Part shown: positions 5,871 to 64,000 of the stretch, one piece after another | How the letters are laid out: each line of letters opens with the position of its first letter | How positions within the stretch are numbered: position 1 is the stretch's first letter | Source: Galerina marginata | Taxonomy: Eukaryota; Basidiomycota; Agaricomycetes; Agaricales; Galerinaceae | Direction of reading: 5' to 3' | Length of the DNA: 64,000 nucleotides | NCBI GenBank assembly: GCA_023014335.1 | Contig: JAECYW010000020.1 | Location: 1,302,001 to 1,366,000, forward strand | Translations under genes and position numbers: made by a program | The notes under the pieces: model-generated | Told to the model about the DNA's origin: nothing | The model's database searches: none | The model's input: the letters and a program-made list of their open reading frames with translations, nothing else

Positions 5871-5879
5871 GATGGTGTT

Positions 5880-13763: not shown

Positions 13764-13815
13764 GTTCGCTCTTGTCATATACAGCCCTCCTCTCATTATA
13801 TTCTTGACTCTATCC

Positions 13816-13873
13816 GTAAGTCATCTGATAGTTTTTTTCGTCAATGTTGTAACTAGCTATCTAATCATTCTAG
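13816..13873 (+). other. 5'-UTR intron 2 of the 893-aa gene
   Basis: GTAAGT donor and TTCTAG acceptor, 58 bp, ending five bases before the ATG. It removes the N-terminal hydrophobic extension that would be read if translation began at the TTG at 13804. Confidence 0.65.
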
Positions 13874-13878
13874 TCATC

Positions 13879-17690: not shown

Positions 17691-17759
17691 GTAGTCATTT
17701 TCAGTACCACAGTTACATTATGCGTAGAACCATGGCACACCGATCGTGCTTTACTATAG

Positions 17760-18053
17760 CTACTGGCTTAGTGATCCCACAATATGGCCCATTTTCGTCG
17801 TCCACTCAGCCGTCCTCTTTATCTTGTTCCTTTTTCGTTTAAGCTTCTTACATGCTGCTTTTTCCTCCTTGATGGTGGCATCGTCTTTCTCAACCTTCTG
17901 TCGCTTCTTCGCATGCAGGTCTGGCTGGCAAGTCAAACACGGGCAGCCTCCAGGCTCATCAGCGAACCACCCCTTCCCATAGTCCACGAGAATCTCTTGG
18001 CCAGGGGCGATATCTTCTGTCGCCTGGACGAAAAACCCGGAGGTTTCTGGGAC
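17760..18053 (-). pseudogene. C-terminal fragment of a SET-domain protein, truncated by the array
   Basis: The minus strand reads 97 residues ending at 17760. It carries the end of a SET domain: a V-Q-A-T-E-D-I-x-P-G-Q-E-I-L-V-D-Y-G core, with the conserved D-Y-G that closes the SET fold, then a post-SET-like G-C-P-C-L-T-C. A basic/acidic tail rich in K, R and E follows, likely nuclear. SET proteins methylate lysines, mostly on histones. The N-terminal part, with the cofactor-binding and NHS-type motifs, is absent: the frame runs into the repeat array at 18053/18054 and meets a stop soon after. Either the array is inserted in the gene, possibly in an intron, or the chromosome broke here. As it stands it cannot encode a working enzyme. 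Confidence 0.65.
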
Positions 18054-18296
18054 TAATAATCTAAGTCGTCAACTGGTACTACCAGTTTGTTCCCGTTCCC
18101 GGGAACAGCTTTTCAGTGACGGGAACACAATGGGAACAGAATTATGGGTTCAGTGGAACATGTGGATGTCTATGGGAACATGTTTCTAAGTTTTATGGAA
18201 CCAAAAATTGCTGAGAGGAACAATAACAACAGGTTTACATGTTTTGCACAGTATTATTTACATGACAGGAATACAACAGAAACAGAATCATAGTCC
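18054..18296. repeat. Module m1: head, hairpin AACTGGT-ACT-ACCAGTT, GGGAAC box
   Basis: The head is followed by a 7-bp-stem hairpin, then the perfect palindrome GTTCCCGGGAAC, then at least six more GGAAC copies spread over about 200 bp. Confidence 0.85.
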
Positions 18297-18505
18297 TAAT
18301 AATCTAAGTCGTGAAGCAGGGACCCTTATTGCATGCTGGCATAGATGCCAAAGCCCTCATATGATATGTCAAAAATAAAATTAAAAAGGCACTGGCATCA
18401 GCTATATATGTTCCATGGCACTTTGGCATCCAATAACAGTGCCAAAAAGATTAATTGAACTCGCTTTGGCATCTGATACATAAGATTCACAAAACCAAAC
18501 AGATC
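18297..18505. repeat. Module m2: head, weak hairpin, GGCAT box
   Basis: Head with GTGAAGCAG. The hairpin is degenerate here (AAGCA...CCCTT). TGGCAT, ATGCC and GGCAC recur at least six times. Confidence 0.8.
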
Positions 18506-18576
18506 TAATAATCTAAGTCATCAACTAGTCCTGCTAGTTGTGTTAAACGTAACAACTCCCACGGTAACAGATTCCT
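18506..18576. repeat. Module m3: head, hairpin CAACTAG-TCCTG-CTAGTTG, GGTAAC box
   Basis: A 71-bp module. After the 7-bp stem comes an imperfect TGTTA-AACGTAACA inverted repeat and one GGTAACAG. Confidence 0.85.
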
Positions 18577-18664
18577 TAATAATCTAAGTCGTCAACTAGT
18601 CCTGCTAGTTGTGTTACACGTAACAACTCCCATGGTAACAGACGGTAACAGATTCCTGAGAGTT
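18577..18664. repeat. Module m4: as m3, with two GGTAAC boxes
   Basis: Same hairpin as m3, with the inverted repeat TGTTAC-AC-GTAACA perfect. This is the point where B' units begin, right after each C unit. Confidence 0.85.
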
Positions 18665-18756
18665 TAATAATCTAAGTCTTCAATAACACCTTGTTATTTG
18701 TTCCGTTCCGGGGAACAGCTTTTCAGTGACGGGAACACAATGGGAACAGATTTCTT
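18665..18756. repeat. Module m5: head, hairpin AATAACA-CCT-TGTTATT, GGGAAC box
   Basis: It combines a different stem with the box class of m1. The inverted repeat is GTTCC-GG-GGAAC and is followed by the same CTTTTCAGTGACGGGAACAC tract as m1. Confidence 0.85.
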
Positions 18757-18844
18757 TAATAATATAAGTTGTCAATAACGAGGGGTTATTGAGTTACCCG
18801 TAACAACTCCCACGGTAACAGACGGTAACAGATTCCTGAGAGTT
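18757..18844. repeat. Module m6: variant head, hairpin CAATAAC-GAGGG-GTTATTG, GGTAAC box
   Basis: The head reads TAATAATATAAGT. A stem like that of m5 is combined with the box class of m3/m4; the inverted repeat is GTTAC-CC-GTAAC. Confidence 0.85.
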
Positions 18845-19122
18845 GAATAATATAAGTCATCAACTGGTACTACCAGTTTGTTCCTGTTTTCGGGAACAGC
18901 TTTTCAGTGACGGGAACACAACGGGAACAGATCTTTGGGTTCAATGGAACTTAGGGTTCCCTATGAGAACACGCAACATTTATCCTTTTTTTCTTTTCTT
19001 GGCTTCTGTAATTACTCAGCTGACCAACACGCTGATCAACATCTGCATGTTTTGTGAAACCAACAGCTTGATTCACATGTCTGTTCAATCTGAGATATCA
19101 GGGAGGGAAATTCAACAAGAAT
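18845..19122. repeat. Module m7: variant head, hairpin AACTGGT-ACT-ACCAGTT, GGGAAC box
   Basis: Stem and box as in m1, but with a head of the m6 type (AATAATATAAGTC) and a diverged inner inverted repeat (GTTCC...GGGAAC). It runs into the GCTTAGGC block. An open frame of 98 codons starting with TTG lies here and is not credible as a gene. Confidence 0.8.
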
Positions 19123-19350
19123 GCTTAGGCAACGCCTAAGCTAAAACCCTTGGCTTTTTTTTAAAAACTCCATCAAAAAGCCTTGCCGAGTCCGCACTTG
19201 CATACAGGTTGCCGGCGGTCGTCATCGGTTAGGTTCTGTTGTACAATTGCATTGGGAAAAAAACAAGTTGCGTCTACAAAAATAAATAGGGCCCGACCAA
19301 AGACTGATATTCCGCACTGTCATTGGGAAACACGTATGTGGTGCAACTAT
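19123..19350. repeat. GCTTAGGC block, copy 1 of the unit
   Basis: Begins with the hairpin GCTTAGGC-AAC-GCCTAAGC (8-bp stem). It continues through CCTTGCCGAGTCCGCACTTG, GTCGTCATCGGTTAGGTTCT and GACTGATATTCCGCAC. Diverged copies start at 20033 and 21058. Function unknown. Confidence 0.85.
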
Positions 19351-19646
19351 AAGTGAAATGGTGAAACTGAACTCAATCGTAGTGATTCATTTGCTTTTAG
19401 AACTAAGTATATCTCCAGGTATCTCTGAAAGTATCCAACGTTAATCCGACTTGCTCTGTTTACTGTCATTTATATCAAAGTTCCATGGAACCAAAGACTT
19501 TTGATACTGCCTCCAGCTTCTGTTGGGTGGACTGGGTATGGGTATGAACCTTGCTTTTAGAGTCATCGACCTTTTGGAGCATCAAAATTGGAACGAAATT
19601 TCAACATCTTGTAATCACTCTTCCCGACACGTCAACCAACAAGCTT

Positions 19647-19770
19647 TAATAATCTAAGTCGTGAAGCAGCAGTGCTTATTGCATGCCGGCATATATGCCA
19701 CTGGCATCATATGACATGTCAAAAAAGTCTTACATTGAATGTAAATTCTGAAGCAGTTGGCGACAGTCAC
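19647..19770. repeat. Module m8: head, hairpin AAGCA-GCAG-TGCTT, GGCAT box
   Basis: Sister of m2 with an intact stem and the perfect 12-bp palindrome GGCATATATGCC, followed by CTGGCAT. Confidence 0.8.
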
Positions 19771-19787
19771 AACAAGGACTCCTTGTT
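19771..19787. repeat. Headless hairpin AACAAGG-ACT-CCTTGTT
   Basis: A 7-bp stem with the ACT loop used by m1 and m7, but not preceded by the head. D units break inside this hairpin. Confidence 0.8.
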
Positions 19788-20032
19788 TAATAGTGCTCTT
19801 GCCATCAAGAATCTCCAATCTGCATGTTCCGTGAAACTTGCGGATGCTACTGCTATTAAAAATCATAGACTTGGTGACAGTTCACGTGGAAAGCTATTAA
19901 TGGTCAAAAAAACATATGGCAATGATATCTGAAAGTTCCATGACATCTGTAAATTCCCGTCAGATGTCAGAGTCATTGATACTATCAGTAACTTGCATAC
20001 TGCAGTTTATAATCAACTTGGTGAATCAGAAT

Positions 20033-20300
20033 GCTTAGGCAACGCCTAAGCTGAGACCCTTGAATTTTCTATTGAAATCTCATCAAAAACCTTGCCGAGT
20101 CCGCACTTGCATACAGGTCACCGGCGGTCGTCATCGGTTAGGTTCTGTTGTACAATTGCGTTAAGAAAAAACAAGTTGCGTCTACAAAATAAATAGGGCC
20201 TAACCAAAGACTGATATTCCGCACCCTCACCAAGAAACACGTGTGTCATCCATAAGTTCCATGAAACCTGTAGATCCACGTCAGATGTCTACTTGGTCAA
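20033..20300. repeat. GCTTAGGC block, copy 2 of the unit
   Basis: Same hairpin and landmarks as copy 1, with substitutions and a longer right part containing AGTTCCATGAAACCTGTAGA. Confidence 0.85.
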
Positions 20301-20742
20301 AGTATTGATCAAAAATTGTGTTAGAATGCTTGAGTGAATTCTGTTGAACTCCCGCAAACAGACCAGTGACTTTACGATGATTATGTAATCACTTTCCCCT
20401 TTGATATCTTCACTCCTGCGGGACAATCCTTGACTCGAGTCCTTCTTCCGAACCATCAAGTGAATTCCCGCAAACAAGTGAATTGACTTTATGTGGACGT
20501 GAGTTGTGTTTAAAGACTGATTTCTAAGTTCTGTGGAACCTACAGTTGATTGGCAAGCAAGTTCTGTTGTACTCCCGCAAACAGTGAATGTCTTCACTCT
20601 GAGTGCGTTGAAATTGCGTCTACAGGGCAGAATTAAATACTGATACCAGGAAATAAGTTCTGTTGATACCAAGTCTGTAGATCCATGTCAGGTCAGAGTA
20701 TTTGTATTAGAGTCTTCCTTTCCTTTGGTGATATACTTTCAC

Positions 20743-21000
20743 AACTAGGACTCCTAGTTTGATGGCGATGGCACCATCAAAATAAAGCAATATTCATGTT
20801 CCATGACACTTGCAGATCACTTTGCCATCAAACATTTTTTTTATCTCTTCGTTTCAAGCAACATCCAGATCTCTCTGCCATCGCATTGATGGCGCCATCA
20901 TCACAAAAACAGGTTCCAAAGTACTTGCAGATTACTTTGCCATCGGGATCCATCAAATAAACAGGTTCTGATATTCTGCATCTTCATCAGGAAATGCGTG
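20743..21000. repeat. Headless hairpin AACTAGG-ACT-CCTAGTT with CCATC box region
   Basis: After the 7-bp stem, GATGG/CCATC occurs repeatedly in both orientations, including the 12-bp palindrome GATGGCGCCATC. It fits the module layout with a fourth box class. Confidence 0.75.
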
Positions 21001-21057
21001 TGATCTGGAAGTTCCATGACACCTGTAGATCTACGTGAGTCATTGGTACATAAGAGT

Positions 21058-21107
21058 GCTTAGGCAACGCCTAAGCTGAGACCCTTGGCTTTTTAAATTG
21101 AAAACCC
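21058..21107. repeat. GCTTAGGC block, copy 3 of the unit (truncated here)
   Basis: Only the first 50 bp remain in A units. In B units it is complete, e.g. from 24112. Confidence 0.8.
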
Positions 21108-24100
21108 TAATAATCTAAGTCGTCAACTGGTACTACCAGTTTGTTCCCGTTCCCGGGAACAGCTTTTCAGTGACGGGAACACAATGGGAACAGAATTATG
21201 GGTTCAGTGGAACATGTGGATGTCTATGGGAACATGTTTCTAAGTTTTATGGAACCAAAAATTGCTGAGAGGAACAATAACAACAGGTTTACATGTTTTG
21301 CACAGTATTATTTACATGACAGGAATACAACAGAAACAGAATCATAGTCCTAATAATCTAAGTCGTGAAGCAGGGACCCTTATTGCATGCTGGCATAGAT
21401 GCCAAAGCCCTCATATGATATGTCAAAAATAAAATTAAAAAGGCACTGGCATCAGCTATATATGTTCCATGGCACTTTGGCATCCAATAACAGTGCCAAA
21501 AAGATTAATTGAACTCGCTTTGGCATCTGATACATAAGATTCACAAAACCAAACAGATCTAATAATCTAAGTCATCAACTAGTCCTGCTAGTTGTGTTAA
21601 ACGTAACAACTCCCACGGTAACAGATTCCTTAATAATCTAAGTCGTCAACTAGTCCTGCTAGTTGTGTTACACGTAACAACTCCCATGGTAACAGACGGT
21701 AACAGATTCCTGAGAGTTTAATAATCTAAGTCTTCAATAACACCTTGTTATTTGTTCCGTTCCGGGGAACAGCTTTTCAGTGACGGGAACACAATGGGAA
21801 CAGATTTCTTTAATAATATAAGTTGTCAATAACGAGGGGTTATTGAGTTACCCGTAACAACTCCCACGGTAACAGACGGTAACAGATTCCTGAGAGTTGA
21901 ATAATATAAGTCATCAACTGGTACTACCAGTTTGTTCCTGTTTTCGGGAACAGCTTTTCAGTGACGGGAACACAACGGGAACAGATCTTTGGGTTCAATG
22001 GAACTTAGGGTTCCCTATGAGAACACGCAACATTTATCCTTTTTTTCTTTTCTTGGCTTCTGTAATTACTCAGCTGACCAACACGCTGATCAACATCTGC
22101 ATGTTTTGTGAAACCAACAGCTTGATTCACATGTCTGTTCAATCTGAGATATCAGGGAGGGAAATTCAACAAGAATGCTTAGGCAACGCCTAAGCTGAAA
22201 CCCTTGGCTTTTTTTTAAAAACTCCATCAAAAAGCCTTGCCGAGTCCGCACTTGCATACAGGTTGCCGGCGGTCGTCATCGGTTAGGTTCTGTTGTACAA
22301 TTGCATTGGGAAAAAAACAAGTTGCGTCTACAAAAATAAATAGGGCCCGACCAAAGACTGATATTCCGCACTGTCATTGGGAAACACGTATGTGGTGCAA
22401 CTATAAGTGAAATGGTGAAACTGAACTCAATCGTAGTGATTCATTTGCTTTTAGAACTAAGTATATCTCCAGGTATCTCTGAAAGTATCCAACGTTAATC
22501 CGACTTGCTCTGTTTACTGTCATTTATATCAAAGTTCCATGGAACCAAAGACTTTTGATACTGCCTCCAGCTTCTGTTGGGTGGACTGGGTATGGGTATG
22601 AACCTTGCTTTTAGAGTCATCGACCTTTTGGAGCATCAAAATTGGAACGAAATTTCAACATCTTGTAATCACTCTTCCCGACACGTCAACCAACAAGCTT
22701 TAATAATCTAAGTCGTGAAGCAGCAGTGCTTATTGCATGCCGGCATATATGCCACTGGCATCATATGACATGTCAAAAAAGTCTTACATTGAATGTAAAT
22801 TCTGAAGCAGTTGGCGACAGTCACAACAAGGACTCCTTGTTTAATAGTGCTCTTGCCATCAAGAATCTCCAATCTGCATGTTCCGTGAAACTTGCGGATG
22901 CTACTGCTATTAAAAATCATAGACTTGGTGACAGTTCACGTGGAAAGCTATTAATGGTCAAAAAAACATATGGCAATGATATCTGAAAGTTCCATGACAT
23001 CTGTAAATTCCCGTCAGATGTCAGAGTCATTGATACTATCAGTAACTTGCATACTGCAGTTTATAATCAACTTGGTGAATCAGAATGCTTAGGCAACGCC
23101 TAAGCTGAGACCCTTGAATTTTCTATTGAAATCTCATCAAAAACCTTGCCGAGTCCGCACTTGCATACAGGTCACCGGCGGTCGTCATCGGTTAGGTTCT
23201 GTTGTACAATTGCGTTAAGAAAAAACAAGTTGCGTCTACAAAATAAATAGGGCCTAACCAAAGACTGATATTCCGCACCCTCACCAAGAAACACGTGTGT
23301 CATCCATAAGTTCCATGAAACCTGTAGATCCACGTCAGATGTCTACTTGGTCAAAGTATTGATCAAAAATTGTGTTAGAATGCTTGAGTGAATTCTGTTG
23401 AACTCCCGCAAACAGACCAGTGACTTTACGATGATTATGTAATCACTTTCCCCTTTGATATCTTCACTCCTGCGGGACAATCCTTGACTCGAGTCCTTCT
23501 TCCGAACCATCAAGTGAATTCCCGCAAACAAGTGAATTGACTTTATGTGGACGTGAGTTGTGTTTAAAGACTGATTTCTAAGTTCTGTGGAACCTACAGT
23601 TGATTGGCAAGCAAGTTCTGTTGTACTCCCGCAAACAGTGAATGTCTTCACTCTGAGTGCGTTGAAATTGCGTCTACAGGGCAGAATTAAATACTGATAC
23701 CAGGAAATAAGTTCTGTTGATACCAAGTCTGTAGATCCATGTCAGGTCAGAGTATTTGTATTAGAGTCTTCCTTTCCTTTGGTGATATACTTTCACAACT
23801 AGGACTCCTAGTTTGATGGCGATGGCACCATCAAAATAAAGCAATATTCATGTTCCATGACACTTGCAGATCACTTTGCCATCAAACATTTTTTTTATCT
23901 CTTCGTTTCAAGCAACATCCAGATCTCTCTGCCATCGCATTGATGGCGCCATCATCACAAAAACAGGTTCCAAAGTACTTGCAGATTACTTTGCCATCGG
24001 GATCCATCAAATAAACAGGTTCTGATATTCTGCATCTTCATCAGGAAATGCGTGTGATCTGGAAGTTCCATGACACCTGTAGATCTACGTGAGTCATTGG

Positions 24101-24508
24101 TACATAAGAGTGCTTAGGCAACGCCTAAGCTGAGACCCTTGGCTTTTTAAATTGAAAACCCATCAAAAACCTTGCCGAGTCCGCACTTGCGTCCAGGTGG
24201 CCGGCGGTCGTCATCGGTTAGGTTCTGTTGTACAATTGCGTTGGGAAAAAAACAAGTTGCATCTAGAAAAATAAATAAGGCCCAACCAAAGACTGATATT
24301 CCGCACCCTTACCAGGAAACGCGTGTGTCATCCGTAAGTTCCATGAAACCTGTAGATCCACGTCAGTTGATCAAAAATTGTATTAGAGTATTCTCTATGT
24401 AATCAATTTCCCATTTGAGTCCTTCTTCCCAAGTTCTGTAGAACCATCAGTTATTGGCGAGCAAATTCTATTGGACTCCCGCAAACAAGTGAATTGACTT
24501 TACGTGGA
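21108..24508. repeat. Array unit B (3401 bp, full length)
   Basis: The longest form and probably the complete unit. It ends in ACTTTACGTGGA directly before the next head. Carries the G variant at 22197. Confidence 0.9.
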
Positions 24509-26712
24509 TAATAATCTAAGTCGTCAACTGGTACTACCAGTTTGTTCCCGTTCCCGGGAACAGCTTTTCAGTGACGGGAACACAATGGGAACAGAATTAT
24601 GGGTTCAGTGGAACATGTGGATGTCTATGGGAACATGTTTCTAAGTTTTATGGAACCAAAAATTGCTGAGAGGAACAATAACAACAGGTTTACATGTTTT
24701 GCACAGTATTATTTACATGACAGGAATACAACAGAAACAGAATCATAGTCCTAATAATCTAAGTCGTGAAGCAGGGACCCTTATTGCATGCTGGCATAGA
24801 TGCCAAAGCCCTCATATGATATGTCAAAAATAAAATTAAAAAGGCACTGGCATCAGCTATATATGTTCCATGGCACTTTGGCATCCAATAACAGTGCCAA
24901 AAAGATTAATTGAACTCGCTTTGGCATCTGATACATAAGATTCACAAAACCAAACAGATCTAATAATCTAAGTCATCAACTAGTCCTGCTAGTTGTGTTA
25001 AACGTAACAACTCCCACGGTAACAGATTCCTTAATAATCTAAGTCGTCAACTAGTCCTGCTAGTTGTGTTACACGTAACAACTCCCATGGTAACAGACGG
25101 TAACAGATTCCTGAGAGTTTAATAATCTAAGTCTTCAATAACACCTTGTTATTTGTTCCGTTCCGGGGAACAGCTTTTCAGTGACGGGAACACAATGGGA
25201 ACAGATTTCTTTAATAATATAAGTTGTCAATAACGAGGGGTTATTGAGTTACCCGTAACAACTCCCACGGTAACAGACGGTAACAGATTCCTGAGAGTTG
25301 AATAATATAAGTCATCAACTGGTACTACCAGTTTGTTCCTGTTTTCGGGAACAGCTTTTCAGTGACGGGAACACAACGGGAACAGATCTTTGGGTTCAAT
25401 GGAACTTAGGGTTCCCTATGAGAACACGCAACATTTATCCTTTTTTTCTTTTCTTGGCTTCTGTAATTACTCAGCTGACCAACACGCTGATCAACATCTG
25501 CATGTTTTGTGAAACCAACAGCTTGATTCACATGTCTGTTCAATCTGAGATATCAGGGAGGGAAATTCAACAAGAATGCTTAGGCAACGCCTAAGCTAAA
25601 ACCCTTGGCTTTTTTTTAAAAACTCCATCAAAAAGCCTTGCCGAGTCCGCACTTGCATACAGGTTGCCGGCGGTCGTCATCGGTTAGGTTCTGTTGTACA
25701 ATTGCATTGGGAAAAAAACAAGTTGCGTCTACAAAAATAAATAGGGCCCGACCAAAGACTGATATTCCGCACTGTCATTGGGAAACACGTATGTGGTGCA
25801 ACTATAAGTGAAATGGTGAAACTGAACTCAATCGTAGTGATTCATTTGCTTTTAGAACTAAGTATATCTCCAGGTATCTCTGAAAGTATCCAACGTTAAT
25901 CCGACTTGCTCTGTTTACTGTCATTTATATCAAAGTTCCATGGAACCAAAGACTTTTGATACTGCCTCCAGCTTCTGTTGGGTGGACTGGGTATGGGTAT
26001 GAACCTTGCTTTTAGAGTCATCGACCTTTTGGAGCATCAAAATTGGAACGAAATTTCAACATCTTGTAATCACTCTTCCCGACACGTCAACCAACAAGCT
26101 TTAATAATCTAAGTCGTGAAGCAGCAGTGCTTATTGCATGCCGGCATATATGCCACTGGCATCATATGACATGTCAAAAAAGTCTTACATTGAATGTAAA
26201 TTCTGAAGCAGTTGGCGACAGTCACAACAAGGACTCCTTGTTTAATAGTGCTCTTGCCATCAAGAATCTCCAATCTGCATGTTCCGTGAAACTTGCGGAT
26301 GCTACTGCTATTAAAAATCATAGACTTGGTGACAGTTCACGTGGAAAGCTATTAATGGTCAAAAAAACATATGGCAATGATATCTGAAAGTTCCATGACA
26401 TCTGTAAATTCCCGTCAGATGTCAGAGTCATTGATACTATCAGTAACTTGCATACTAGCCCTATGGACGCGTATGAAAAATCCTTCGTTTCAGACCACCA
26501 AAGGCGTGGGAAATAAAATAATCTGATCGGAGATTCAAATTTCTTGGCATCAAATACCCCCCCTCAACATTTTACATCGAGAGAATCCGTCCAGTATAGC
26601 CCAAGATATGGCTATTACAGTTTTTTTGTCCTCCATTTTGTCCTCCATATTTGTCCTCCGTTTTCCGCCATTTCCGTCCTTTGTCCGCCCTGTCCTTCCC
26701 GGAAGGACGTCC
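24509..26712. repeat. Array unit C (2204 bp)
   Basis: It matches B up to CTTGCATACT and then switches to a foreign 256-bp segment. The following unit starts at module m4, not m1. Confidence 0.9.
26457..26712. other. Foreign 256-bp segment ending unit C
   Basis: This segment has no counterpart in B. Its right half carries five to six TGTCCTCC/TGTCCGCC-like direct repeats and closes with the palindrome GTCCTTCCCGGAAGGAC just before the next head. It looks like one end of an unrelated element. Confidence 0.8.
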
Positions 26713-29590
26713 TAATAATCTAAGTCGTCAACTAGTCCTGCTAGTTGTGTTACACGTAACAACTCCCATGGTAACAGACGGTAACAGATTCCTGAGAGTT
26801 TAATAATCTAAGTCTTCAATAACACCTTGTTATTTGTTCCGTTCCGGGGAACAGCTTTTCAGTGACGGGAACACAATGGGAACAGATTTCTTTAATAATA
26901 TAAGTTGTCAATAACGAGGGGTTATTGAGTTACCCGTAACAACTCCCACGGTAACAGACGGTAACAGATTCCTGAGAGTTGAATAATATAAGTCATCAAC
27001 TGGTACTACCAGTTTGTTCCTGTTTTCGGGAACAGCTTTTCAGTGACGGGAACACAACGGGAACAGATCTTTGGGTTCAATGGAACTTAGGGTTCCCTAT
27101 GAGAACACGCAACATTTATCCTTTTTTTCTTTTCTTGGCTTCTGTAATTACTCAGCTGACCAACACGCTGATCAACATCTGCATGTTTTGTGAAACCAAC
27201 AGCTTGATTCACATGTCTGTTCAATCTGAGATATCAGGGAGGGAAATTCAACAAGAATGCTTAGGCAACGCCTAAGCTGAAACCCTTGGCTTTTTTTTAA
27301 AAACTCCATCAAAAAGCCTTGCCGAGTCCGCACTTGCATACAGGTTGCCGGCGGTCGTCATCGGTTAGGTTCTGTTGTACAATTGCATTGGGAAAAAAAC
27401 AAGTTGCGTCTACAAAAATAAATAGGGCCCGACCAAAGACTGATATTCCGCACTGTCATTGGGAAACACGTATGTGGTGCAACTATAAGTGAAATGGTGA
27501 AACTGAACTCAATCGTAGTGATTCATTTGCTTTTAGAACTAAGTATATCTCCAGGTATCTCTGAAAGTATCCAACGTTAATCCGACTTGCTCTGTTTACT
27601 GTCATTTATATCAAAGTTCCATGGAACCAAAGACTTTTGATACTGCCTCCAGCTTCTGTTGGGTGGACTGGGTATGGGTATGAACCTTGCTTTTAGAGTC
27701 ATCGACCTTTTGGAGCATCAAAATTGGAACGAAATTTCAACATCTTGTAATCACTCTTCCCGACACGTCAACCAACAAGCTTTAATAATCTAAGTCGTGA
27801 AGCAGCAGTGCTTATTGCATGCCGGCATATATGCCACTGGCATCATATGACATGTCAAAAAAGTCTTACATTGAATGTAAATTCTGAAGCAGTTGGCGAC
27901 AGTCACAACAAGGACTCCTTGTTTAATAGTGCTCTTGCCATCAAGAATCTCCAATCTGCATGTTCCGTGAAACTTGCGGATGCTACTGCTATTAAAAATC
28001 ATAGACTTGGTGACAGTTCACGTGGAAAGCTATTAATGGTCAAAAAAACATATGGCAATGATATCTGAAAGTTCCATGACATCTGTAAATTCCCGTCAGA
28101 TGTCAGAGTCATTGATACTATCAGTAACTTGCATACTGCAGTTTATAATCAACTTGGTGAATCAGAATGCTTAGGCAACGCCTAAGCTGAGACCCTTGAA
28201 TTTTCTATTGAAATCTCATCAAAAACCTTGCCGAGTCCGCACTTGCATACAGGTCACCGGCGGTCGTCATCGGTTAGGTTCTGTTGTACAATTGCGTTAA
28301 GAAAAAACAAGTTGCGTCTACAAAATAAATAGGGCCTAACCAAAGACTGATATTCCGCACCCTCACCAAGAAACACGTGTGTCATCCATAAGTTCCATGA
28401 AACCTGTAGATCCACGTCAGATGTCTACTTGGTCAAAGTATTGATCAAAAATTGTGTTAGAATGCTTGAGTGAATTCTGTTGAACTCCCGCAAACAGACC
28501 AGTGACTTTACGATGATTATGTAATCACTTTCCCCTTTGATATCTTCACTCCTGCGGGACAATCCTTGACTCGAGTCCTTCTTCCGAACCATCAAGTGAA
28601 TTCCCGCAAACAAGTGAATTGACTTTATGTGGACGTGAGTTGTGTTTAAAGACTGATTTCTAAGTTCTGTGGAACCTACAGTTGATTGGCAAGCAAGTTC
28701 TGTTGTACTCCCGCAAACAGTGAATGTCTTCACTCTGAGTGCGTTGAAATTGCGTCTACAGGGCAGAATTAAATACTGATACCAGGAAATAAGTTCTGTT
28801 GATACCAAGTCTGTAGATCCATGTCAGGTCAGAGTATTTGTATTAGAGTCTTCCTTTCCTTTGGTGATATACTTTCACAACTAGGACTCCTAGTTTGATG
28901 GCGATGGCACCATCAAAATAAAGCAATATTCATGTTCCATGACACTTGCAGATCACTTTGCCATCAAACATTTTTTTTATCTCTTCGTTTCAAGCAACAT
29001 CCAGATCTCTCTGCCATCGCATTGATGGCGCCATCATCACAAAAACAGGTTCCAAAGTACTTGCAGATTACTTTGCCATCGGGATCCATCAAATAAACAG
29101 GTTCTGATATTCTGCATCTTCATCAGGAAATGCGTGTGATCTGGAAGTTCCATGACACCTGTAGATCTACGTGAGTCATTGGTACATAAGAGTGCTTAGG
29201 CAACGCCTAAGCTGAGACCCTTGGCTTTTTAAATTGAAAACCCATCAAAAACCTTGCCGAGTCCGCACTTGCGTCCAGGTGGCCGGCGGTCGTCATCGGT
29301 TAGGTTCTGTTGTACAATTGCGTTGGGAAAAAAACAAGTTGCATCTAGAAAAATAAATAAGGCCCAACCAAAGACTGATATTCCGCACCCTTACCAGGAA
29401 ACGCGTGTGTCATCCGTAAGTTCCATGAAACCTGTAGATCCACGTCAGTTGATCAAAAATTGTATTAGAGTATTCTCTATGTAATCAATTTCCCATTTGA
29501 GTCCTTCTTCCCAAGTTCTGTAGAACCATCAGTTATTGGCGAGCAAATTCTATTGGACTCCCGCAAACAAGTGAATTGACTTTACGTGGA
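26713..29590. repeat. Array unit B' (2878 bp)
   Basis: Equal to B without modules m1-m3 (523 bp). Carries the G variant. Confidence 0.9.
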
Positions 29591-31794
29591 TAATAATCTA
29601 AGTCGTCAACTGGTACTACCAGTTTGTTCCCGTTCCCGGGAACAGCTTTTCAGTGACGGGAACACAATGGGAACAGAATTATGGGTTCAGTGGAACATGT
29701 GGATGTCTATGGGAACATGTTTCTAAGTTTTATGGAACCAAAAATTGCTGAGAGGAACAATAACAACAGGTTTACATGTTTTGCACAGTATTATTTACAT
29801 GACAGGAATACAACAGAAACAGAATCATAGTCCTAATAATCTAAGTCGTGAAGCAGGGACCCTTATTGCATGCTGGCATAGATGCCAAAGCCCTCATATG
29901 ATATGTCAAAAATAAAATTAAAAAGGCACTGGCATCAGCTATATATGTTCCATGGCACTTTGGCATCCAATAACAGTGCCAAAAAGATTAATTGAACTCG
30001 CTTTGGCATCTGATACATAAGATTCACAAAACCAAACAGATCTAATAATCTAAGTCATCAACTAGTCCTGCTAGTTGTGTTAAACGTAACAACTCCCACG
30101 GTAACAGATTCCTTAATAATCTAAGTCGTCAACTAGTCCTGCTAGTTGTGTTACACGTAACAACTCCCATGGTAACAGACGGTAACAGATTCCTGAGAGT
30201 TTAATAATCTAAGTCTTCAATAACACCTTGTTATTTGTTCCGTTCCGGGGAACAGCTTTTCAGTGACGGGAACACAATGGGAACAGATTTCTTTAATAAT
30301 ATAAGTTGTCAATAACGAGGGGTTATTGAGTTACCCGTAACAACTCCCACGGTAACAGACGGTAACAGATTCCTGAGAGTTGAATAATATAAGTCATCAA
30401 CTGGTACTACCAGTTTGTTCCTGTTTTCGGGAACAGCTTTTCAGTGACGGGAACACAACGGGAACAGATCTTTGGGTTCAATGGAACTTAGGGTTCCCTA
30501 TGAGAACACGCAACATTTATCCTTTTTTTCTTTTCTTGGCTTCTGTAATTACTCAGCTGACCAACACGCTGATCAACATCTGCATGTTTTGTGAAACCAA
30601 CAGCTTGATTCACATGTCTGTTCAATCTGAGATATCAGGGAGGGAAATTCAACAAGAATGCTTAGGCAACGCCTAAGCTAAAACCCTTGGCTTTTTTTTA
30701 AAAACTCCATCAAAAAGCCTTGCCGAGTCCGCACTTGCATACAGGTTGCCGGCGGTCGTCATCGGTTAGGTTCTGTTGTACAATTGCATTGGGAAAAAAA
30801 CAAGTTGCGTCTACAAAAATAAATAGGGCCCGACCAAAGACTGATATTCCGCACTGTCATTGGGAAACACGTATGTGGTGCAACTATAAGTGAAATGGTG
30901 AAACTGAACTCAATCGTAGTGATTCATTTGCTTTTAGAACTAAGTATATCTCCAGGTATCTCTGAAAGTATCCAACGTTAATCCGACTTGCTCTGTTTAC
31001 TGTCATTTATATCAAAGTTCCATGGAACCAAAGACTTTTGATACTGCCTCCAGCTTCTGTTGGGTGGACTGGGTATGGGTATGAACCTTGCTTTTAGAGT
31101 CATCGACCTTTTGGAGCATCAAAATTGGAACGAAATTTCAACATCTTGTAATCACTCTTCCCGACACGTCAACCAACAAGCTTTAATAATCTAAGTCGTG
31201 AAGCAGCAGTGCTTATTGCATGCCGGCATATATGCCACTGGCATCATATGACATGTCAAAAAAGTCTTACATTGAATGTAAATTCTGAAGCAGTTGGCGA
31301 CAGTCACAACAAGGACTCCTTGTTTAATAGTGCTCTTGCCATCAAGAATCTCCAATCTGCATGTTCCGTGAAACTTGCGGATGCTACTGCTATTAAAAAT
31401 CATAGACTTGGTGACAGTTCACGTGGAAAGCTATTAATGGTCAAAAAAACATATGGCAATGATATCTGAAAGTTCCATGACATCTGTAAATTCCCGTCAG
31501 ATGTCAGAGTCATTGATACTATCAGTAACTTGCATACTAGCCCTATGGACGCGTATGAAAAATCCTTCGTTTCAGACCACCAAAGGCGTGGGAAATAAAA
31601 TAATCTGATCGGAGATTCAAATTTCTTGGCATCAAATACCCCCCCTCAACATTTTACATCGAGAGAATCCGTCCAGTATAGCCCAAGATATGGCTATTAC
31701 AGTTTTTTTGTCCTCCATTTTGTCCTCCATATTTGTCCTCCGTTTTCCGCCATTTCCGTCCTTTGTCCGCCCTGTCCTTCCCGGAAGGACGTCC
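29591..31794. repeat. Array unit C (2204 bp)
   Basis: Second C of HOR copy 1, with the A variant. Confidence 0.9.
31539..31794. other. Foreign segment of unit C
   Basis: Same segment as at 26457-26712, with the same junctions. Confidence 0.8.
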
Positions 31795-34672
31795 TAATAA
31801 TCTAAGTCGTCAACTAGTCCTGCTAGTTGTGTTACACGTAACAACTCCCATGGTAACAGACGGTAACAGATTCCTGAGAGTTTAATAATCTAAGTCTTCA
31901 ATAACACCTTGTTATTTGTTCCGTTCCGGGGAACAGCTTTTCAGTGACGGGAACACAATGGGAACAGATTTCTTTAATAATATAAGTTGTCAATAACGAG
32001 GGGTTATTGAGTTACCCGTAACAACTCCCACGGTAACAGACGGTAACAGATTCCTGAGAGTTGAATAATATAAGTCATCAACTGGTACTACCAGTTTGTT
32101 CCTGTTTTCGGGAACAGCTTTTCAGTGACGGGAACACAACGGGAACAGATCTTTGGGTTCAATGGAACTTAGGGTTCCCTATGAGAACACGCAACATTTA
32201 TCCTTTTTTTCTTTTCTTGGCTTCTGTAATTACTCAGCTGACCAACACGCTGATCAACATCTGCATGTTTTGTGAAACCAACAGCTTGATTCACATGTCT
32301 GTTCAATCTGAGATATCAGGGAGGGAAATTCAACAAGAATGCTTAGGCAACGCCTAAGCTGAAACCCTTGGCTTTTTTTTAAAAACTCCATCAAAAAGCC
32401 TTGCCGAGTCCGCACTTGCATACAGGTTGCCGGCGGTCGTCATCGGTTAGGTTCTGTTGTACAATTGCATTGGGAAAAAAACAAGTTGCGTCTACAAAAA
32501 TAAATAGGGCCCGACCAAAGACTGATATTCCGCACTGTCATTGGGAAACACGTATGTGGTGCAACTATAAGTGAAATGGTGAAACTGAACTCAATCGTAG
32601 TGATTCATTTGCTTTTAGAACTAAGTATATCTCCAGGTATCTCTGAAAGTATCCAACGTTAATCCGACTTGCTCTGTTTACTGTCATTTATATCAAAGTT
32701 CCATGGAACCAAAGACTTTTGATACTGCCTCCAGCTTCTGTTGGGTGGACTGGGTATGGGTATGAACCTTGCTTTTAGAGTCATCGACCTTTTGGAGCAT
32801 CAAAATTGGAACGAAATTTCAACATCTTGTAATCACTCTTCCCGACACGTCAACCAACAAGCTTTAATAATCTAAGTCGTGAAGCAGCAGTGCTTATTGC
32901 ATGCCGGCATATATGCCACTGGCATCATATGACATGTCAAAAAAGTCTTACATTGAATGTAAATTCTGAAGCAGTTGGCGACAGTCACAACAAGGACTCC
33001 TTGTTTAATAGTGCTCTTGCCATCAAGAATCTCCAATCTGCATGTTCCGTGAAACTTGCGGATGCTACTGCTATTAAAAATCATAGACTTGGTGACAGTT
33101 CACGTGGAAAGCTATTAATGGTCAAAAAAACATATGGCAATGATATCTGAAAGTTCCATGACATCTGTAAATTCCCGTCAGATGTCAGAGTCATTGATAC
33201 TATCAGTAACTTGCATACTGCAGTTTATAATCAACTTGGTGAATCAGAATGCTTAGGCAACGCCTAAGCTGAGACCCTTGAATTTTCTATTGAAATCTCA
33301 TCAAAAACCTTGCCGAGTCCGCACTTGCATACAGGTCACCGGCGGTCGTCATCGGTTAGGTTCTGTTGTACAATTGCGTTAAGAAAAAACAAGTTGCGTC
33401 TACAAAATAAATAGGGCCTAACCAAAGACTGATATTCCGCACCCTCACCAAGAAACACGTGTGTCATCCATAAGTTCCATGAAACCTGTAGATCCACGTC
33501 AGATGTCTACTTGGTCAAAGTATTGATCAAAAATTGTGTTAGAATGCTTGAGTGAATTCTGTTGAACTCCCGCAAACAGACCAGTGACTTTACGATGATT
33601 ATGTAATCACTTTCCCCTTTGATATCTTCACTCCTGCGGGACAATCCTTGACTCGAGTCCTTCTTCCGAACCATCAAGTGAATTCCCGCAAACAAGTGAA
33701 TTGACTTTATGTGGACGTGAGTTGTGTTTAAAGACTGATTTCTAAGTTCTGTGGAACCTACAGTTGATTGGCAAGCAAGTTCTGTTGTACTCCCGCAAAC
33801 AGTGAATGTCTTCACTCTGAGTGCGTTGAAATTGCGTCTACAGGGCAGAATTAAATACTGATACCAGGAAATAAGTTCTGTTGATACCAAGTCTGTAGAT
33901 CCATGTCAGGTCAGAGTATTTGTATTAGAGTCTTCCTTTCCTTTGGTGATATACTTTCACAACTAGGACTCCTAGTTTGATGGCGATGGCACCATCAAAA
34001 TAAAGCAATATTCATGTTCCATGACACTTGCAGATCACTTTGCCATCAAACATTTTTTTTATCTCTTCGTTTCAAGCAACATCCAGATCTCTCTGCCATC
34101 GCATTGATGGCGCCATCATCACAAAAACAGGTTCCAAAGTACTTGCAGATTACTTTGCCATCGGGATCCATCAAATAAACAGGTTCTGATATTCTGCATC
34201 TTCATCAGGAAATGCGTGTGATCTGGAAGTTCCATGACACCTGTAGATCTACGTGAGTCATTGGTACATAAGAGTGCTTAGGCAACGCCTAAGCTGAGAC
34301 CCTTGGCTTTTTAAATTGAAAACCCATCAAAAACCTTGCCGAGTCCGCACTTGCGTCCAGGTGGCCGGCGGTCGTCATCGGTTAGGTTCTGTTGTACAAT
34401 TGCGTTGGGAAAAAAACAAGTTGCATCTAGAAAAATAAATAAGGCCCAACCAAAGACTGATATTCCGCACCCTTACCAGGAAACGCGTGTGTCATCCGTA
34501 AGTTCCATGAAACCTGTAGATCCACGTCAGTTGATCAAAAATTGTATTAGAGTATTCTCTATGTAATCAATTTCCCATTTGAGTCCTTCTTCCCAAGTTC
34601 TGTAGAACCATCAGTTATTGGCGAGCAAATTCTATTGGACTCCCGCAAACAAGTGAATTGACTTTACGTGGA
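31795..34672. repeat. Array unit B' (2878 bp)
   Basis: Second B' of HOR copy 1, G variant. Confidence 0.9.
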
Positions 34673-36401
34673 TAATAATCTAAGTCGTCAACTGGTACTA
34701 CCAGTTTGTTCCCGTTCCCGGGAACAGCTTTTCAGTGACGGGAACACAATGGGAACAGAATTATGGGTTCAGTGGAACATGTGGATGTCTATGGGAACAT
34801 GTTTCTAAGTTTTATGGAACCAAAAATTGCTGAGAGGAACAATAACAACAGGTTTACATGTTTTGCACAGTATTATTTACATGACAGGAATACAACAGAA
34901 ACAGAATCATAGTCCTAATAATCTAAGTCGTGAAGCAGGGACCCTTATTGCATGCTGGCATAGATGCCAAAGCCCTCATATGATATGTCAAAAATAAAAT
35001 TAAAAAGGCACTGGCATCAGCTATATATGTTCCATGGCACTTTGGCATCCAATAACAGTGCCAAAAAGATTAATTGAACTCGCTTTGGCATCTGATACAT
35101 AAGATTCACAAAACCAAACAGATCTAATAATCTAAGTCATCAACTAGTCCTGCTAGTTGTGTTAAACGTAACAACTCCCACGGTAACAGATTCCTTAATA
35201 ATCTAAGTCGTCAACTAGTCCTGCTAGTTGTGTTACACGTAACAACTCCCATGGTAACAGACGGTAACAGATTCCTGAGAGTTTAATAATCTAAGTCTTC
35301 AATAACACCTTGTTATTTGTTCCGTTCCGGGGAACAGCTTTTCAGTGACGGGAACACAATGGGAACAGATTTCTTTAATAATATAAGTTGTCAATAACGA
35401 GGGGTTATTGAGTTACCCGTAACAACTCCCACGGTAACAGACGGTAACAGATTCCTGAGAGTTGAATAATATAAGTCATCAACTGGTACTACCAGTTTGT
35501 TCCTGTTTTCGGGAACAGCTTTTCAGTGACGGGAACACAACGGGAACAGATCTTTGGGTTCAATGGAACTTAGGGTTCCCTATGAGAACACGCAACATTT
35601 ATCCTTTTTTTCTTTTCTTGGCTTCTGTAATTACTCAGCTGACCAACACGCTGATCAACATCTGCATGTTTTGTGAAACCAACAGCTTGATTCACATGTC
35701 TGTTCAATCTGAGATATCAGGGAGGGAAATTCAACAAGAATGCTTAGGCAACGCCTAAGCTAAAACCCTTGGCTTTTTTTTAAAAACTCCATCAAAAAGC
35801 CTTGCCGAGTCCGCACTTGCATACAGGTTGCCGGCGGTCGTCATCGGTTAGGTTCTGTTGTACAATTGCATTGGGAAAAAAACAAGTTGCGTCTACAAAA
35901 ATAAATAGGGCCCGACCAAAGACTGATATTCCGCACTGTCATTGGGAAACACGTATGTGGTGCAACTATAAGTGAAATGGTGAAACTGAACTCAATCGTA
36001 GTGATTCATTTGCTTTTAGAACTAAGTATATCTCCAGGTATCTCTGAAAGTATCCAACGTTAATCCGACTTGCTCTGTTTACTGTCATTTATATCAAAGT
36101 TCCATGGAACCAAAGACTTTTGATACTGCCTCCAGCTTCTGTTGGGTGGACTGGGTATGGGTATGAACCTTGCTTTTAGAGTCATCGACCTTTTGGAGCA
36201 TCAAAATTGGAACGAAATTTCAACATCTTGTAATCACTCTTCCCGACACGTCAACCAACAAGCTTTAATAATCTAAGTCGTGAAGCAGCAGTGCTTATTG
36301 CATGCCGGCATATATGCCACTGGCATCATATGACATGTCAAAAAAGTCTTACATTGAATGTAAATTCTGAAGCAGTTGGCGACAGTCACAACAAGGACTC
36401 C
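34673..36401. repeat. Array unit D (1729 bp)
   Basis: Cut off inside the AACAAGG-ACT-CCTTGTT hairpin, after ACTCC. A new head (m1) follows at once. Confidence 0.9.
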
Positions 36402-39400
36402 TAATAATCTAAGTCGTCAACTGGTACTACCAGTTTGTTCCCGTTCCCGGGAACAGCTTTTCAGTGACGGGAACACAATGGGAACAGAATTATGGGTTCA
36501 GTGGAACATGTGGATGTCTATGGGAACATGTTTCTAAGTTTTATGGAACCAAAAATTGCTGAGAGGAACAATAACAACAGGTTTACATGTTTTGCACAGT
36601 ATTATTTACATGACAGGAATACAACAGAAACAGAATCATAGTCCTAATAATCTAAGTCGTGAAGCAGGGACCCTTATTGCATGCTGGCATAGATGCCAAA
36701 GCCCTCATATGATATGTCAAAAATAAAATTAAAAAGGCACTGGCATCAGCTATATATGTTCCATGGCACTTTGGCATCCAATAACAGTGCCAAAAAGATT
36801 AATTGAACTCGCTTTGGCATCTGATACATAAGATTCACAAAACCAAACAGATCTAATAATCTAAGTCATCAACTAGTCCTGCTAGTTGTGTTAAACGTAA
36901 CAACTCCCACGGTAACAGATTCCTTAATAATCTAAGTCGTCAACTAGTCCTGCTAGTTGTGTTACACGTAACAACTCCCATGGTAACAGACGGTAACAGA
37001 TTCCTGAGAGTTTAATAATCTAAGTCTTCAATAACACCTTGTTATTTGTTCCGTTCCGGGGAACAGCTTTTCAGTGACGGGAACACAATGGGAACAGATT
37101 TCTTTAATAATATAAGTTGTCAATAACGAGGGGTTATTGAGTTACCCGTAACAACTCCCACGGTAACAGACGGTAACAGATTCCTGAGAGTTGAATAATA
37201 TAAGTCATCAACTGGTACTACCAGTTTGTTCCTGTTTTCGGGAACAGCTTTTCAGTGACGGGAACACAACGGGAACAGATCTTTGGGTTCAATGGAACTT
37301 AGGGTTCCCTATGAGAACACGCAACATTTATCCTTTTTTTCTTTTCTTGGCTTCTGTAATTACTCAGCTGACCAACACGCTGATCAACATCTGCATGTTT
37401 TGTGAAACCAACAGCTTGATTCACATGTCTGTTCAATCTGAGATATCAGGGAGGGAAATTCAACAAGAATGCTTAGGCAACGCCTAAGCTAAAACCCTTG
37501 GCTTTTTTTTAAAAACTCCATCAAAAAGCCTTGCCGAGTCCGCACTTGCATACAGGTTGCCGGCGGTCGTCATCGGTTAGGTTCTGTTGTACAATTGCAT
37601 TGGGAAAAAAACAAGTTGCGTCTACAAAAATAAATAGGGCCCGACCAAAGACTGATATTCCGCACTGTCATTGGGAAACACGTATGTGGTGCAACTATAA
37701 GTGAAATGGTGAAACTGAACTCAATCGTAGTGATTCATTTGCTTTTAGAACTAAGTATATCTCCAGGTATCTCTGAAAGTATCCAACGTTAATCCGACTT
37801 GCTCTGTTTACTGTCATTTATATCAAAGTTCCATGGAACCAAAGACTTTTGATACTGCCTCCAGCTTCTGTTGGGTGGACTGGGTATGGGTATGAACCTT
37901 GCTTTTAGAGTCATCGACCTTTTGGAGCATCAAAATTGGAACGAAATTTCAACATCTTGTAATCACTCTTCCCGACACGTCAACCAACAAGCTTTAATAA
38001 TCTAAGTCGTGAAGCAGCAGTGCTTATTGCATGCCGGCATATATGCCACTGGCATCATATGACATGTCAAAAAAGTCTTACATTGAATGTAAATTCTGAA
38101 GCAGTTGGCGACAGTCACAACAAGGACTCCTTGTTTAATAGTGCTCTTGCCATCAAGAATCTCCAATCTGCATGTTCCGTGAAACTTGCGGATGCTACTG
38201 CTATTAAAAATCATAGACTTGGTGACAGTTCACGTGGAAAGCTATTAATGGTCAAAAAAACATATGGCAATGATATCTGAAAGTTCCATGACATCTGTAA
38301 ATTCCCGTCAGATGTCAGAGTCATTGATACTATCAGTAACTTGCATACTGCAGTTTATAATCAACTTGGTGAATCAGAATGCTTAGGCAACGCCTAAGCT
38401 GAGACCCTTGAATTTTCTATTGAAATCTCATCAAAAACCTTGCCGAGTCCGCACTTGCATACAGGTCACCGGCGGTCGTCATCGGTTAGGTTCTGTTGTA
38501 CAATTGCGTTAAGAAAAAACAAGTTGCGTCTACAAAATAAATAGGGCCTAACCAAAGACTGATATTCCGCACCCTCACCAAGAAACACGTGTGTCATCCA
38601 TAAGTTCCATGAAACCTGTAGATCCACGTCAGATGTCTACTTGGTCAAAGTATTGATCAAAAATTGTGTTAGAATGCTTGAGTGAATTCTGTTGAACTCC
38701 CGCAAACAGACCAGTGACTTTACGATGATTATGTAATCACTTTCCCCTTTGATATCTTCACTCCTGCGGGACAATCCTTGACTCGAGTCCTTCTTCCGAA
38801 CCATCAAGTGAATTCCCGCAAACAAGTGAATTGACTTTATGTGGACGTGAGTTGTGTTTAAAGACTGATTTCTAAGTTCTGTGGAACCTACAGTTGATTG
38901 GCAAGCAAGTTCTGTTGTACTCCCGCAAACAGTGAATGTCTTCACTCTGAGTGCGTTGAAATTGCGTCTACAGGGCAGAATTAAATACTGATACCAGGAA
39001 ATAAGTTCTGTTGATACCAAGTCTGTAGATCCATGTCAGGTCAGAGTATTTGTATTAGAGTCTTCCTTTCCTTTGGTGATATACTTTCACAACTAGGACT
39101 CCTAGTTTGATGGCGATGGCACCATCAAAATAAAGCAATATTCATGTTCCATGACACTTGCAGATCACTTTGCCATCAAACATTTTTTTTATCTCTTCGT
39201 TTCAAGCAACATCCAGATCTCTCTGCCATCGCATTGATGGCGCCATCATCACAAAAACAGGTTCCAAAGTACTTGCAGATTACTTTGCCATCGGGATCCA
39301 TCAAATAAACAGGTTCTGATATTCTGCATCTTCATCAGGAAATGCGTGTGATCTGGAAGTTCCATGACACCTGTAGATCTACGTGAGTCATTGGTACATA

Positions 39401-39802
39401 AGAGTGCTTAGGCAACGCCTAAGCTGAGACCCTTGGCTTTTTAAATTGAAAACCCATCAAAAACCTTGCCGAGTCCGCACTTGCGTCCAGGTGGCCGGCG
39501 GTCGTCATCGGTTAGGTTCTGTTGTACAATTGCGTTGGGAAAAAAACAAGTTGCATCTAGAAAAATAAATAAGGCCCAACCAAAGACTGATATTCCGCAC
39601 CCTTACCAGGAAACGCGTGTGTCATCCGTAAGTTCCATGAAACCTGTAGATCCACGTCAGTTGATCAAAAATTGTATTAGAGTATTCTCTATGTAATCAA
39701 TTTCCCATTTGAGTCCTTCTTCCCAAGTTCTGTAGAACCATCAGTTATTGGCGAGCAAATTCTATTGGACTCCCGCAAACAAGTGAATTGACTTTACGTG
39801 GA
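36402..39802. repeat. Array unit B (3401 bp)
   Basis: Full unit, but with the A variant, unlike the B and B' units that follow A or C. Confidence 0.9.
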
Positions 39803-42800: not shown

Positions 42801-42856
42801 AAGAGTGCTTAGGCAACGCCTAAGCTGAGACCCTTGGCTTTTTAAATTGAAAACCC
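39803..42856. repeat. Array unit A (3054 bp)
   Basis: First unit of HOR copy 2; counterpart of 18054-21107. Confidence 0.9.
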
Positions 42857-45800: not shown

Positions 45801-46257
45801 GTGTGATCTGGAAGTTCCATGACACCTGTAGATCTACGTGAGTCATTGGTACATAAGAGTGCTTAGGCAACGCCTAAGCTGAGACCCTTGGCTTTTTAAA
45901 TTGAAAACCCATCAAAAACCTTGCCGAGTCCGCACTTGCGTCCAGGTGGCCGGCGGTCGTCATCGGTTAGGTTCTGTTGTACAATTGCGTTGGGAAAAAA
46001 ACAAGTTGCATCTAGAAAAATAAATAAGGCCCAACCAAAGACTGATATTCCGCACCCTTACCAGGAAACGCGTGTGTCATCCGTAAGTTCCATGAAACCT
46101 GTAGATCCACGTCAGTTGATCAAAAATTGTATTAGAGTATTCTCTATGTAATCAATTTCCCATTTGAGTCCTTCTTCCCAAGTTCTGTAGAACCATCAGT
46201 TATTGGCGAGCAAATTCTATTGGACTCCCGCAAACAAGTGAATTGACTTTACGTGGA
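42857..46257. repeat. Array unit B (3401 bp)
   Basis: Counterpart of 21108-24508, G variant. Confidence 0.9.
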
Positions 46258-61100: not shown

Positions 61101-61551
61101 TCTGGAAGTTCCATGACACCTGTAGATCTACGTGAGTCATTGGTACATAAGAGTGCTTAGGCAACGCCTAAGCTGAGACCCTTGGCTTTTTAAATTGAAA
61201 ACCCATCAAAAACCTTGCCGAGTCCGCACTTGCGTCCAGGTGGCCGGCGGTCGTCATCGGTTAGGTTCTGTTGTACAATTGCGTTGGGAAAAAAACAAGT
61301 TGCATCTAGAAAAATAAATAAGGCCCAACCAAAGACTGATATTCCGCACCCTTACCAGGAAACGCGTGTGTCATCCGTAAGTTCCATGAAACCTGTAGAT
61401 CCACGTCAGTTGATCAAAAATTGTATTAGAGTATTCTCTATGTAATCAATTTCCCATTTGAGTCCTTCTTCCCAAGTTCTGTAGAACCATCAGTTATTGG
61501 CGAGCAAATTCTATTGGACTCCCGCAAACAAGTGAATTGACTTTACGTGGA
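58151..61551. repeat. Array unit B (3401 bp)
   Basis: Counterpart of 36402-39802, A variant. Confidence 0.9.
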
Positions 61552-63755: not shown

Positions 63756-64000
63756 TAATAATCTAAGTCGTCAACTAGTCCTGCTAGTTGTGTTACACGT
63801 AACAACTCCCATGGTAACAGACGGTAACAGATTCCTGAGAGTTTAATAATCTAAGTCTTCAATAACACCTTGTTATTTGTTCCGTTCCGGGGAACAGCTT
63901 TTCAGTGACGGGAACACAATGGGAACAGATTTCTTTAATAATATAAGTTGTCAATAACGAGGGGTTATTGAGTTACCCGTAACAACTCCCACGGTAACAG
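63756..64000. repeat. Array unit B', cut by the window end
   Basis: Starts at module m4 and reaches into m6. Confidence 0.85.

Follow-up and report, generated by a model that had tools for sequence, protein, structure and literature searches.

RecQ-like helicase genes are known from subtelomeres in Agaricus (PMC7473861), Ganoderma (PMC10817607) and the TLH-containing regions of Fusarium (PMC12857005), and full as well as truncated helicase copies have been described in Agaricus (PMC7473861) and Fusarium (PMC12857005), as far as the available parts of these sources go. In the available part of the Agaricus report, the helicase core was the only domain found and the role of such chromosome-end genes is given as debated (PMC7473861). 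Here we describe a stretch of 64,000 nucleotides from Galerina marginata (the window; G000:C13:1302001-1366000, in a genome of 69.3 Mb and 43 contigs) that is filled from position 18054 on by a single tandem array, which runs past the window end to C13:1397234, about 77 kb in all. The modules of this array begin with a constant head sequence or a variant of it, and we propose that they are probably the distally truncated proximal ends of one-ended helicase elements that capture chromosome ends, strung together and amplified. The observations behind this proposal are a fixed terminus, three intact counterparts, a short C(T) identity at the joins, a common polarity, and helicase genes behind two head types.

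The head AATAATNTAAGT was found 127 times on the forward strand of the window and never on the reverse strand, and C13 carried 211 heads between 18054 and 94723 in window numbering. These divided the array into 14 distinct head-to-head sequences of 71 to 1808 bp, and a full unit comprised eight module types, m1 to m8. Copies of any one module were identical or nearly identical. An earlier note on this DNA had recognized at least eight modules with a constant head and had placed them at 18054..19770; the modules and the start position were correct, but the array was far longer. When the genome was searched with the pattern AATAATATAAGTYNTCAA, allowing at most one mismatch, at least 255 forward matches and at least one reverse match were obtained, compared to 2 and 0 with a reversed control. 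The 255 forward matches were located on C13 (162), C26 (90), C7 (2) and C1 (1). C26 held a second array that ran off the contig end, and C7 a short degenerate one. A second head gave 30 exact matches, all forward.

The m1 head was preceded by eight different sequences, namely the flanks on C13, C26 and C1 and five contexts within arrays, and it started at the same base in all of them, after a C in seven contexts and an A in one. The other heads had one or two junction contexts each. Intact counterparts were present for the three flanks. On C1, the join interrupted a helicase-family gene that was uncut on C39, with 99% identity across 394 aligned bases up to the join; the next 406 bases of the intact site were present only on C39, and the far side of the cut gene was missing at C1. 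On C13, the left flank recurred with 100% identity at C13:1226009-1227162, where the sequence ran on across the join point and SET-domain positions 84-105 and 4-79 matched on the two sides, both under the Pfam cut-off. On C26, the flank was 98% identical to C40:106069-106639 up to the join and different after it. All three intact sites read C, followed by T at the position of the head start. Six joins within arrays (m1-m2, m3-m4, a shortened m7, and m8 at 83, 136 and 1461) were compared with untruncated copies. The outer length of m8 was 83 bp (on C26 only), 136, 1461 or 1808 bp, or 355 bp followed by a 256-bp segment (listed as 611), with a precise head after each. Nine joins were kept, leaving out a C7 m8 row with a 9-base match and rows that matched solely an error-bearing C26 copy. 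A C lay directly before the head in eight of the nine joins with a counterpart (the ninth read CCT), a T came next in the counterpart in six of the nine, and 0-3 bases were shared past the join point. By this comparison, the head marks where a subtelomeric element has its fixed proximal end, and this end is joined at one and the same base to different, truncated genes.

Longer elements were found behind two of the heads. Element B on C1 consisted, on one strand, of an m1-type head, about 900 bp of GGGAAC-type repeats, a zinc-finger-like open reading frame (ORF), a weak OrsD match, a 614-amino-acid (aa) ORF and a RecQ-like domain. The first 246 bp of m1 were 99% identical to its leader, and the repeats stopped about 150 bp ahead of the first ATG. 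The RecQ-like domain (C1:4306060-4307169) matched TIGR00614 with 90 bits and an E-value of 2.3e-24, under the curated cut-off of 219.8 bits, as did all 32 TIGR00614 matches in the genome; the OrsD match (E 0.0059) was likewise under its cut-off. The gene cut by element B belongs to another element, A, and on C1, as among the array modules, an older element has therefore been truncated by a later one. The homology of element A on C1 to C39 (97%) and C40 (93%) started at L033:1856 and 1857, which is the site of CCTAATAATCTTAAGT, with a hairpin after it. Its leader contained degenerate repeats with seven 35-mers mostly 37 bp apart, and its head lay about 2.9 kb ahead of the first zinc-finger-like ORF. 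On C39, the head of element A was followed by a RecQ domain and a region like the 614-aa ORF; since element B on C1 has these as well, two head types precede helicase genes. The m1 head was the richest in contexts and its leader matched the helicase-bearing element, a pattern that action of the cognate protein in trans would produce.

Twelve loci were related to the 614-aa ORF. Each lay between 9.7 and 212 kb from the closer end of its contig, and 11 of them were oriented towards that end; the twelfth was on a 21 kb contig. Telomere repeats were present on only some of these ends. The few named relatives of the helicase gene occurred in Phlegmacium, Pholiota, Obba, Athelia and Pisolithus, and in Pholiota the helicase and recombinase-like regions were in one predicted protein. 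A scan of viral contigs with one helicase-family protein gave no match. The middle region of the helicase is predicted to be tyrosine-recombinase-like, judging from its modelled fold and conserved R/K/R/H/Y residues. All of the first 24 and all of the first 20 VIA rows for the predicted fold were tyrosine recombinases or topoisomerase IB, with Foldseek E-values that were not significant. In alignment A4, which included 54 of 63 homologues and left out nine short or partial ones, R291, K326, R417, H450 and Y459 were kept in 53-54 of the 54 sequences, and the H position of the second motif read N, A, Q, S or R; residues were assigned to motifs by pattern, without superposition. The 54 members matched no Pfam recombinase family at E 0.1, and a profile search of solved-structure sequences gave no match. 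Among the matches listed from the open-licence literature, no report of a recombinase region in telomere-linked helicases was found, which does not imply that it is absent from print.

These elements suggest the following model. From the interior to the tip, a longer element consists of the head (C)CTAATAATCTAAGT, a hairpin, usually a palindromic box, and a degenerate-repeat leader. Behind the leader, in the same orientation, lies a telomere-linked helicase gene whose regions are zinc-finger/OrsD-type, tyrosine-recombinase-like and RecQ. The head-bearing end would join another arm at a C or C(C)T, either within a gene or within an older element, and the old sequence distal to the join would be lost and replaced by the incoming element. 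Later joins would shorten the older elements from outside to give the chain m1 to m8, and block amplification of this chain would give the 77 kb array. The join could be made by either the recombinase-like region or repair enzymes. If the recombinase-like region makes it, the hairpin and boxes may be its class-specific sites. We put forward more tentatively the stronger version, to which we give somewhat less than even chances, that the telomere-linked helicases of mushrooms are recombinases: a tyrosine-recombinase/RecQ protein would join its own head to C(C)T in a different chromosome arm and thereby swap a whole chromosome end, with the hairpin and box as a per-protein address and the arrays as scars. 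The suggestion of address-like sites for one protein family in the earlier note survives in a changed form: the head is an element terminus, helicase-family genes are present in two longer elements, with zinc-finger-like, recombinase-like and RecQ regions that vary from one element type to another, and the stem or box may be what these proteins recognize. The note did not recognize the modules as truncated, head-joined and block-amplified copies. If the model is true, a well-known family of telomere genes would count among the mobile elements, and chromosome ends would have a route of exchange in addition to telomerase, homologous recombination and retroelements. The presence of a recombinase-like region within the helicase gene would explain both the spread of the gene and the variable chromosome tips, and the fixed terminus with its intact counterpart sites makes helicase-gene mobility directly testable.

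The modular grammar of head, hairpin and box was confirmed, with pairing maintained in the majority of stem classes. Perfect stems of 7-8 bp followed the head in m1, m3, m4, m5, m6 and m7 and were equalled by only 0-6 of 1000 dinucleotide shuffles. No such stem was seen in m2 (841 of 1000 shuffles as good), and the AAGCA/TGCTT stem of m8, named earlier as a fifth stem, was weak and not above chance (166 of 1000). Pairs were counted over nine distinct rows, with m2 and m8 left out. Standard pairs made up 87.5% compared to 67.1% in shuffles (reached by 0 of 500) and 8-44% in slid controls, and there were 14 double-changed cells compared to 4.4 (reached by 0 of 500). There was no excess of pairs with a double change (5 compared to 3.4; 78 of 500) or of further pair types (5 compared to 5.4; 408 of 500), and these are the measures least misled by relatedness, so that two of the five covariation measures were not above shuffles. 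Because the module copies are near-identical clones, the window holds few stem classes and covariation rests on those few. Eight stem classes that included relatives at other loci, selected for having a hairpin and again without m2 and m8, gave 52 Watson-Crick pairs out of 56, one G-T pair and three mismatches. The hairpin of the earlier note was upheld for six of the eight module types, but not for m2 and m8, and the refuting outcome named there, copies whose stems do not covary, was not seen in the stem classes examined.

Boxes were counted against 500 shuffles, with m7 and m8 scored on their first 286 and 244 bases. GGAAC occurred nine times in m1, five times in m5 and six times in m7 (0.3-0.7 expected from shuffles), GGTAAC twice in m4 and three times in m6 (0.1 expected), and GGCAT five times in m2 and four times in m8 (1.1 and 0.6 expected). 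Class-specific boxes, as previously suggested, were thus enriched in m1, m2 and m4-m8, but in m3 there was a single GGTAAC, matched in 39 of 500 shuffles. Predicted folds of single-stranded DNA had two abutting hairpins in m1, m3, m5 and the second-family module. For m6 and element A only the first hairpin was clear (equalled by 9 and 13 of 200 shuffles), and for m8 neither was above chance (55 of 200).

The main rival explanation is passive end repair, in which breaks are healed by microhomology-primed copying from subtelomeres, the array is a satellite grown by recombination, and hairpins favour the head as a starting point, all without encoded machinery. Several observations fit this explanation: the joins share few bases (0-3 past the join point), the distal side is replaced rather than flanked, the telomere repeats of C13 and C7 were added directly to the array, and block amplification is plain. 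However, copying from random points would not give a common start base for the m1 head in its eight junctions and for element A on C1, C39 and C40, and the homology between head and gene at the joins is limited to a few bases. We therefore consider passive repair unlikely, although it deserves to be taken seriously. A simple satellite was rejected, as it leaves the common exact start of the head unexplained.

A chromosome-end retroelement on the minus strand was also considered, with a fixed, stem-loop-bearing 3′ end turned towards the interior and variable 5′ truncation. Arrays of the HeT-A type have such a fixed 3′ end and variable 5′ truncation, and the modules fit this pattern in their single orientation, constant inner end and varying outer end; the many reverse transcriptase matches in the genome fit it too. 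The gene behind two head types is, however, a helicase on the opposite strand, and this reading direction reduced the retroelement to a rival that we regard as improbable. No ORF in the array exceeded 127 aa in a list with a 100-aa cut-off, the scanned translations of array ORFs included no Pfam reverse transcriptase, and no linked reverse transcriptase was seen in the array ORFs listed or the loci examined. Very improbable, as a full account, is a regulatory origin, in which head, hairpin and boxes form a promoter or insulator of the helicase that was spread by ordinary duplication, the boxes binding transcription factors. The class-specific enrichment of boxes and the end of the element B repeats shortly before the first ATG would suit a promoter, but a promoter has no reason to start at one exact base in unrelated truncated genes, and the element A head is about 2.9 kb away from the first zinc-finger-like ORF. 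A regulatory role can nevertheless coexist with truncated helicase elements as the source of the modules.

Table 1. Features of the array and its left border, in window positions.
Feature	Position	Strand	Details
SET-domain gene remnant, cut by first head	17760..18053	-	weak Pfam match, SET positions 84-105
Tandem module array	18054..64000	+	continues to C13:1397234, TTAGGG-type repeats from there
m1	18054..18296	+	head 18054-18067; stem 18071-18077/18081-18087; palindromic GTTCCC/GGGAAC box; GGAAC repeats
m2	18297..18505	+	head; no significant stem; GGCAT boxes
m3	18506..18576	+	head; stem CAACTAG/CTAGTTG; GTAAC box
m4	18577..18664	+	head; stem CAACTAG/CTAGTTG; GGTAAC boxes
m5	18665..18756	+	head; stem AATAACA/TGTTATT; GGAAC boxes
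m6	18757..18844	+	variant head; stem TCAATAAC/GTTATTGA; GGTAAC boxes
m7	18845..19646	+	variant head; m1-type stem; GGAAC boxes; then palindrome GCTTAGGCAACGCCTAAGC, recurring in unit
m8	19647..21107	+	head; weak stem; GGCAT boxes
Second head family ATATACTTTCACAAC within m8	20731..20960	+	stem AACTAGG/CCTAGTT; GATGGC/GCCATC boxes; also at C2, C7
Segment from shortened m8 to m4 head	26457..26712		first part is also the final array sequence before the C13 telomere

TTAGGG repeats capped the arrays on C13 and C7 and were present on six of the 22 right contig ends that were read (C1, C2, C7, C10, C13 and C41) and on none of the 43 left ends, where one sequence is given as N. On C13, the last array sequence before the telomere (end of L024) corresponded to window 26457-26590, with telomere repeats directly after it, so that the telomere seems to start on array sequence as after the healing of a broken end. 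A second-family module lay 1.8 kb from the capped end of C2, and C41 showed distant repeat similarity only. Window 5110-7229 had stretches of 77-83% similarity in the C41 subtelomere (L035 2133-4067), and sequence to the left of the array is therefore also common to chromosome ends. Window 16900-18053 had its identical 1154-bp copy (C13:1226009-1227162) 93 kb further from the chromosome end, and C13:1247188 held a partial inverted copy with 87% identity; the sequence flanking the array on its left thus looks like a recent duplication itself. The palindrome GCTTAGGCAACGCCTAAGC occurred with conserved surroundings at window 19118, 20028 and 21056, several times per unit and in diverged form on C41, and is possibly another part of an element. 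At the end of C26 (L030), the last ~2 kb differed from the array in numerous small ways, which would be usual for uncorrected reads at a contig end. Three contig pairs had the same starting bases, namely C7/C9 (L044, L046), C8/C40 (L045, L077) and C22/C26 (L059, L063). A stretch on C28 (L098) in which short inverted ends enclose GGGTA-type repeats, with an 8-bp flanking repeat, resembled, by eye, a small DNA transposon, and an array-type head was absent from the part read. Within the window, a 918-aa open frame in a GC-rich stretch (13804-16560) had no Pfam match, an F-box-like ORF left of the array was discarded (Pfam E 0.029, under the cut-off; no homologue at E 0.001), and neither an Rfam match at gathering scores nor a tRNA was found.

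In Starships and Cryptons, a tyrosine-recombinase gene reads inward from a defined element end and the join has a short identity. The Galerina elements share a predicted recombinase-like gene that reads inward from one defined end and a short identity at the join, but here a RecQ domain is in the same gene, the distal end is undefined and the distal flank is replaced. Cryptons are tyrosine recombinase elements with short flanking repeats on both sides, and the captain of a Starship is of the DUF3435 type; none of the 54 members had a Pfam match to DUF3435 at E 0.1. HeT-A/TART and the yeast Y′ elements form head-to-tail, single-orientation copies at chromosome ends, as here, and Y′ also encode a helicase, but here no linked reverse transcriptase was seen in the array ORFs listed or the loci examined, and the terminus is fixed at broken genes. 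A 2008 report, cited in PMC4289320, describes a RecQ-like gene in the CPA element of Tolypocladium and may have regarded a gene of this kind as belonging to a repeat. FoTeR is a telomere retrotransposon with truncated copies at chromosome ends that occurs together with helicase genes in Fusarium, according to the available part of the source (PMC12857005). Truncated end copies are thus common to MoTeR/FoTeR and Galerina, but the former, as far as described there, have a reverse transcriptase and are sited in telomere repeats, whereas the Galerina joins are in genes and older modules. Helitrons have a 3′ CTRR end with an upstream hairpin and insert between A and T, and they resemble the modules in the hairpin near one end and the lack of target duplication; a Helitron was rejected, because the minus-strand end reads CTTAGATTATTAG and the joins are at C or CT, so that neither end nor target fits the part of the description available (PMC4289320). 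With the telomere-linked RecQ helicases Galerina shares RecQ-like genes, which here probably lie near chromosome ends. Beyond what the available parts of those sources describe, the Galerina elements have a fixed head terminus with intact counterparts, a repeat leader and a predicted recombinase-like region before the helicase.
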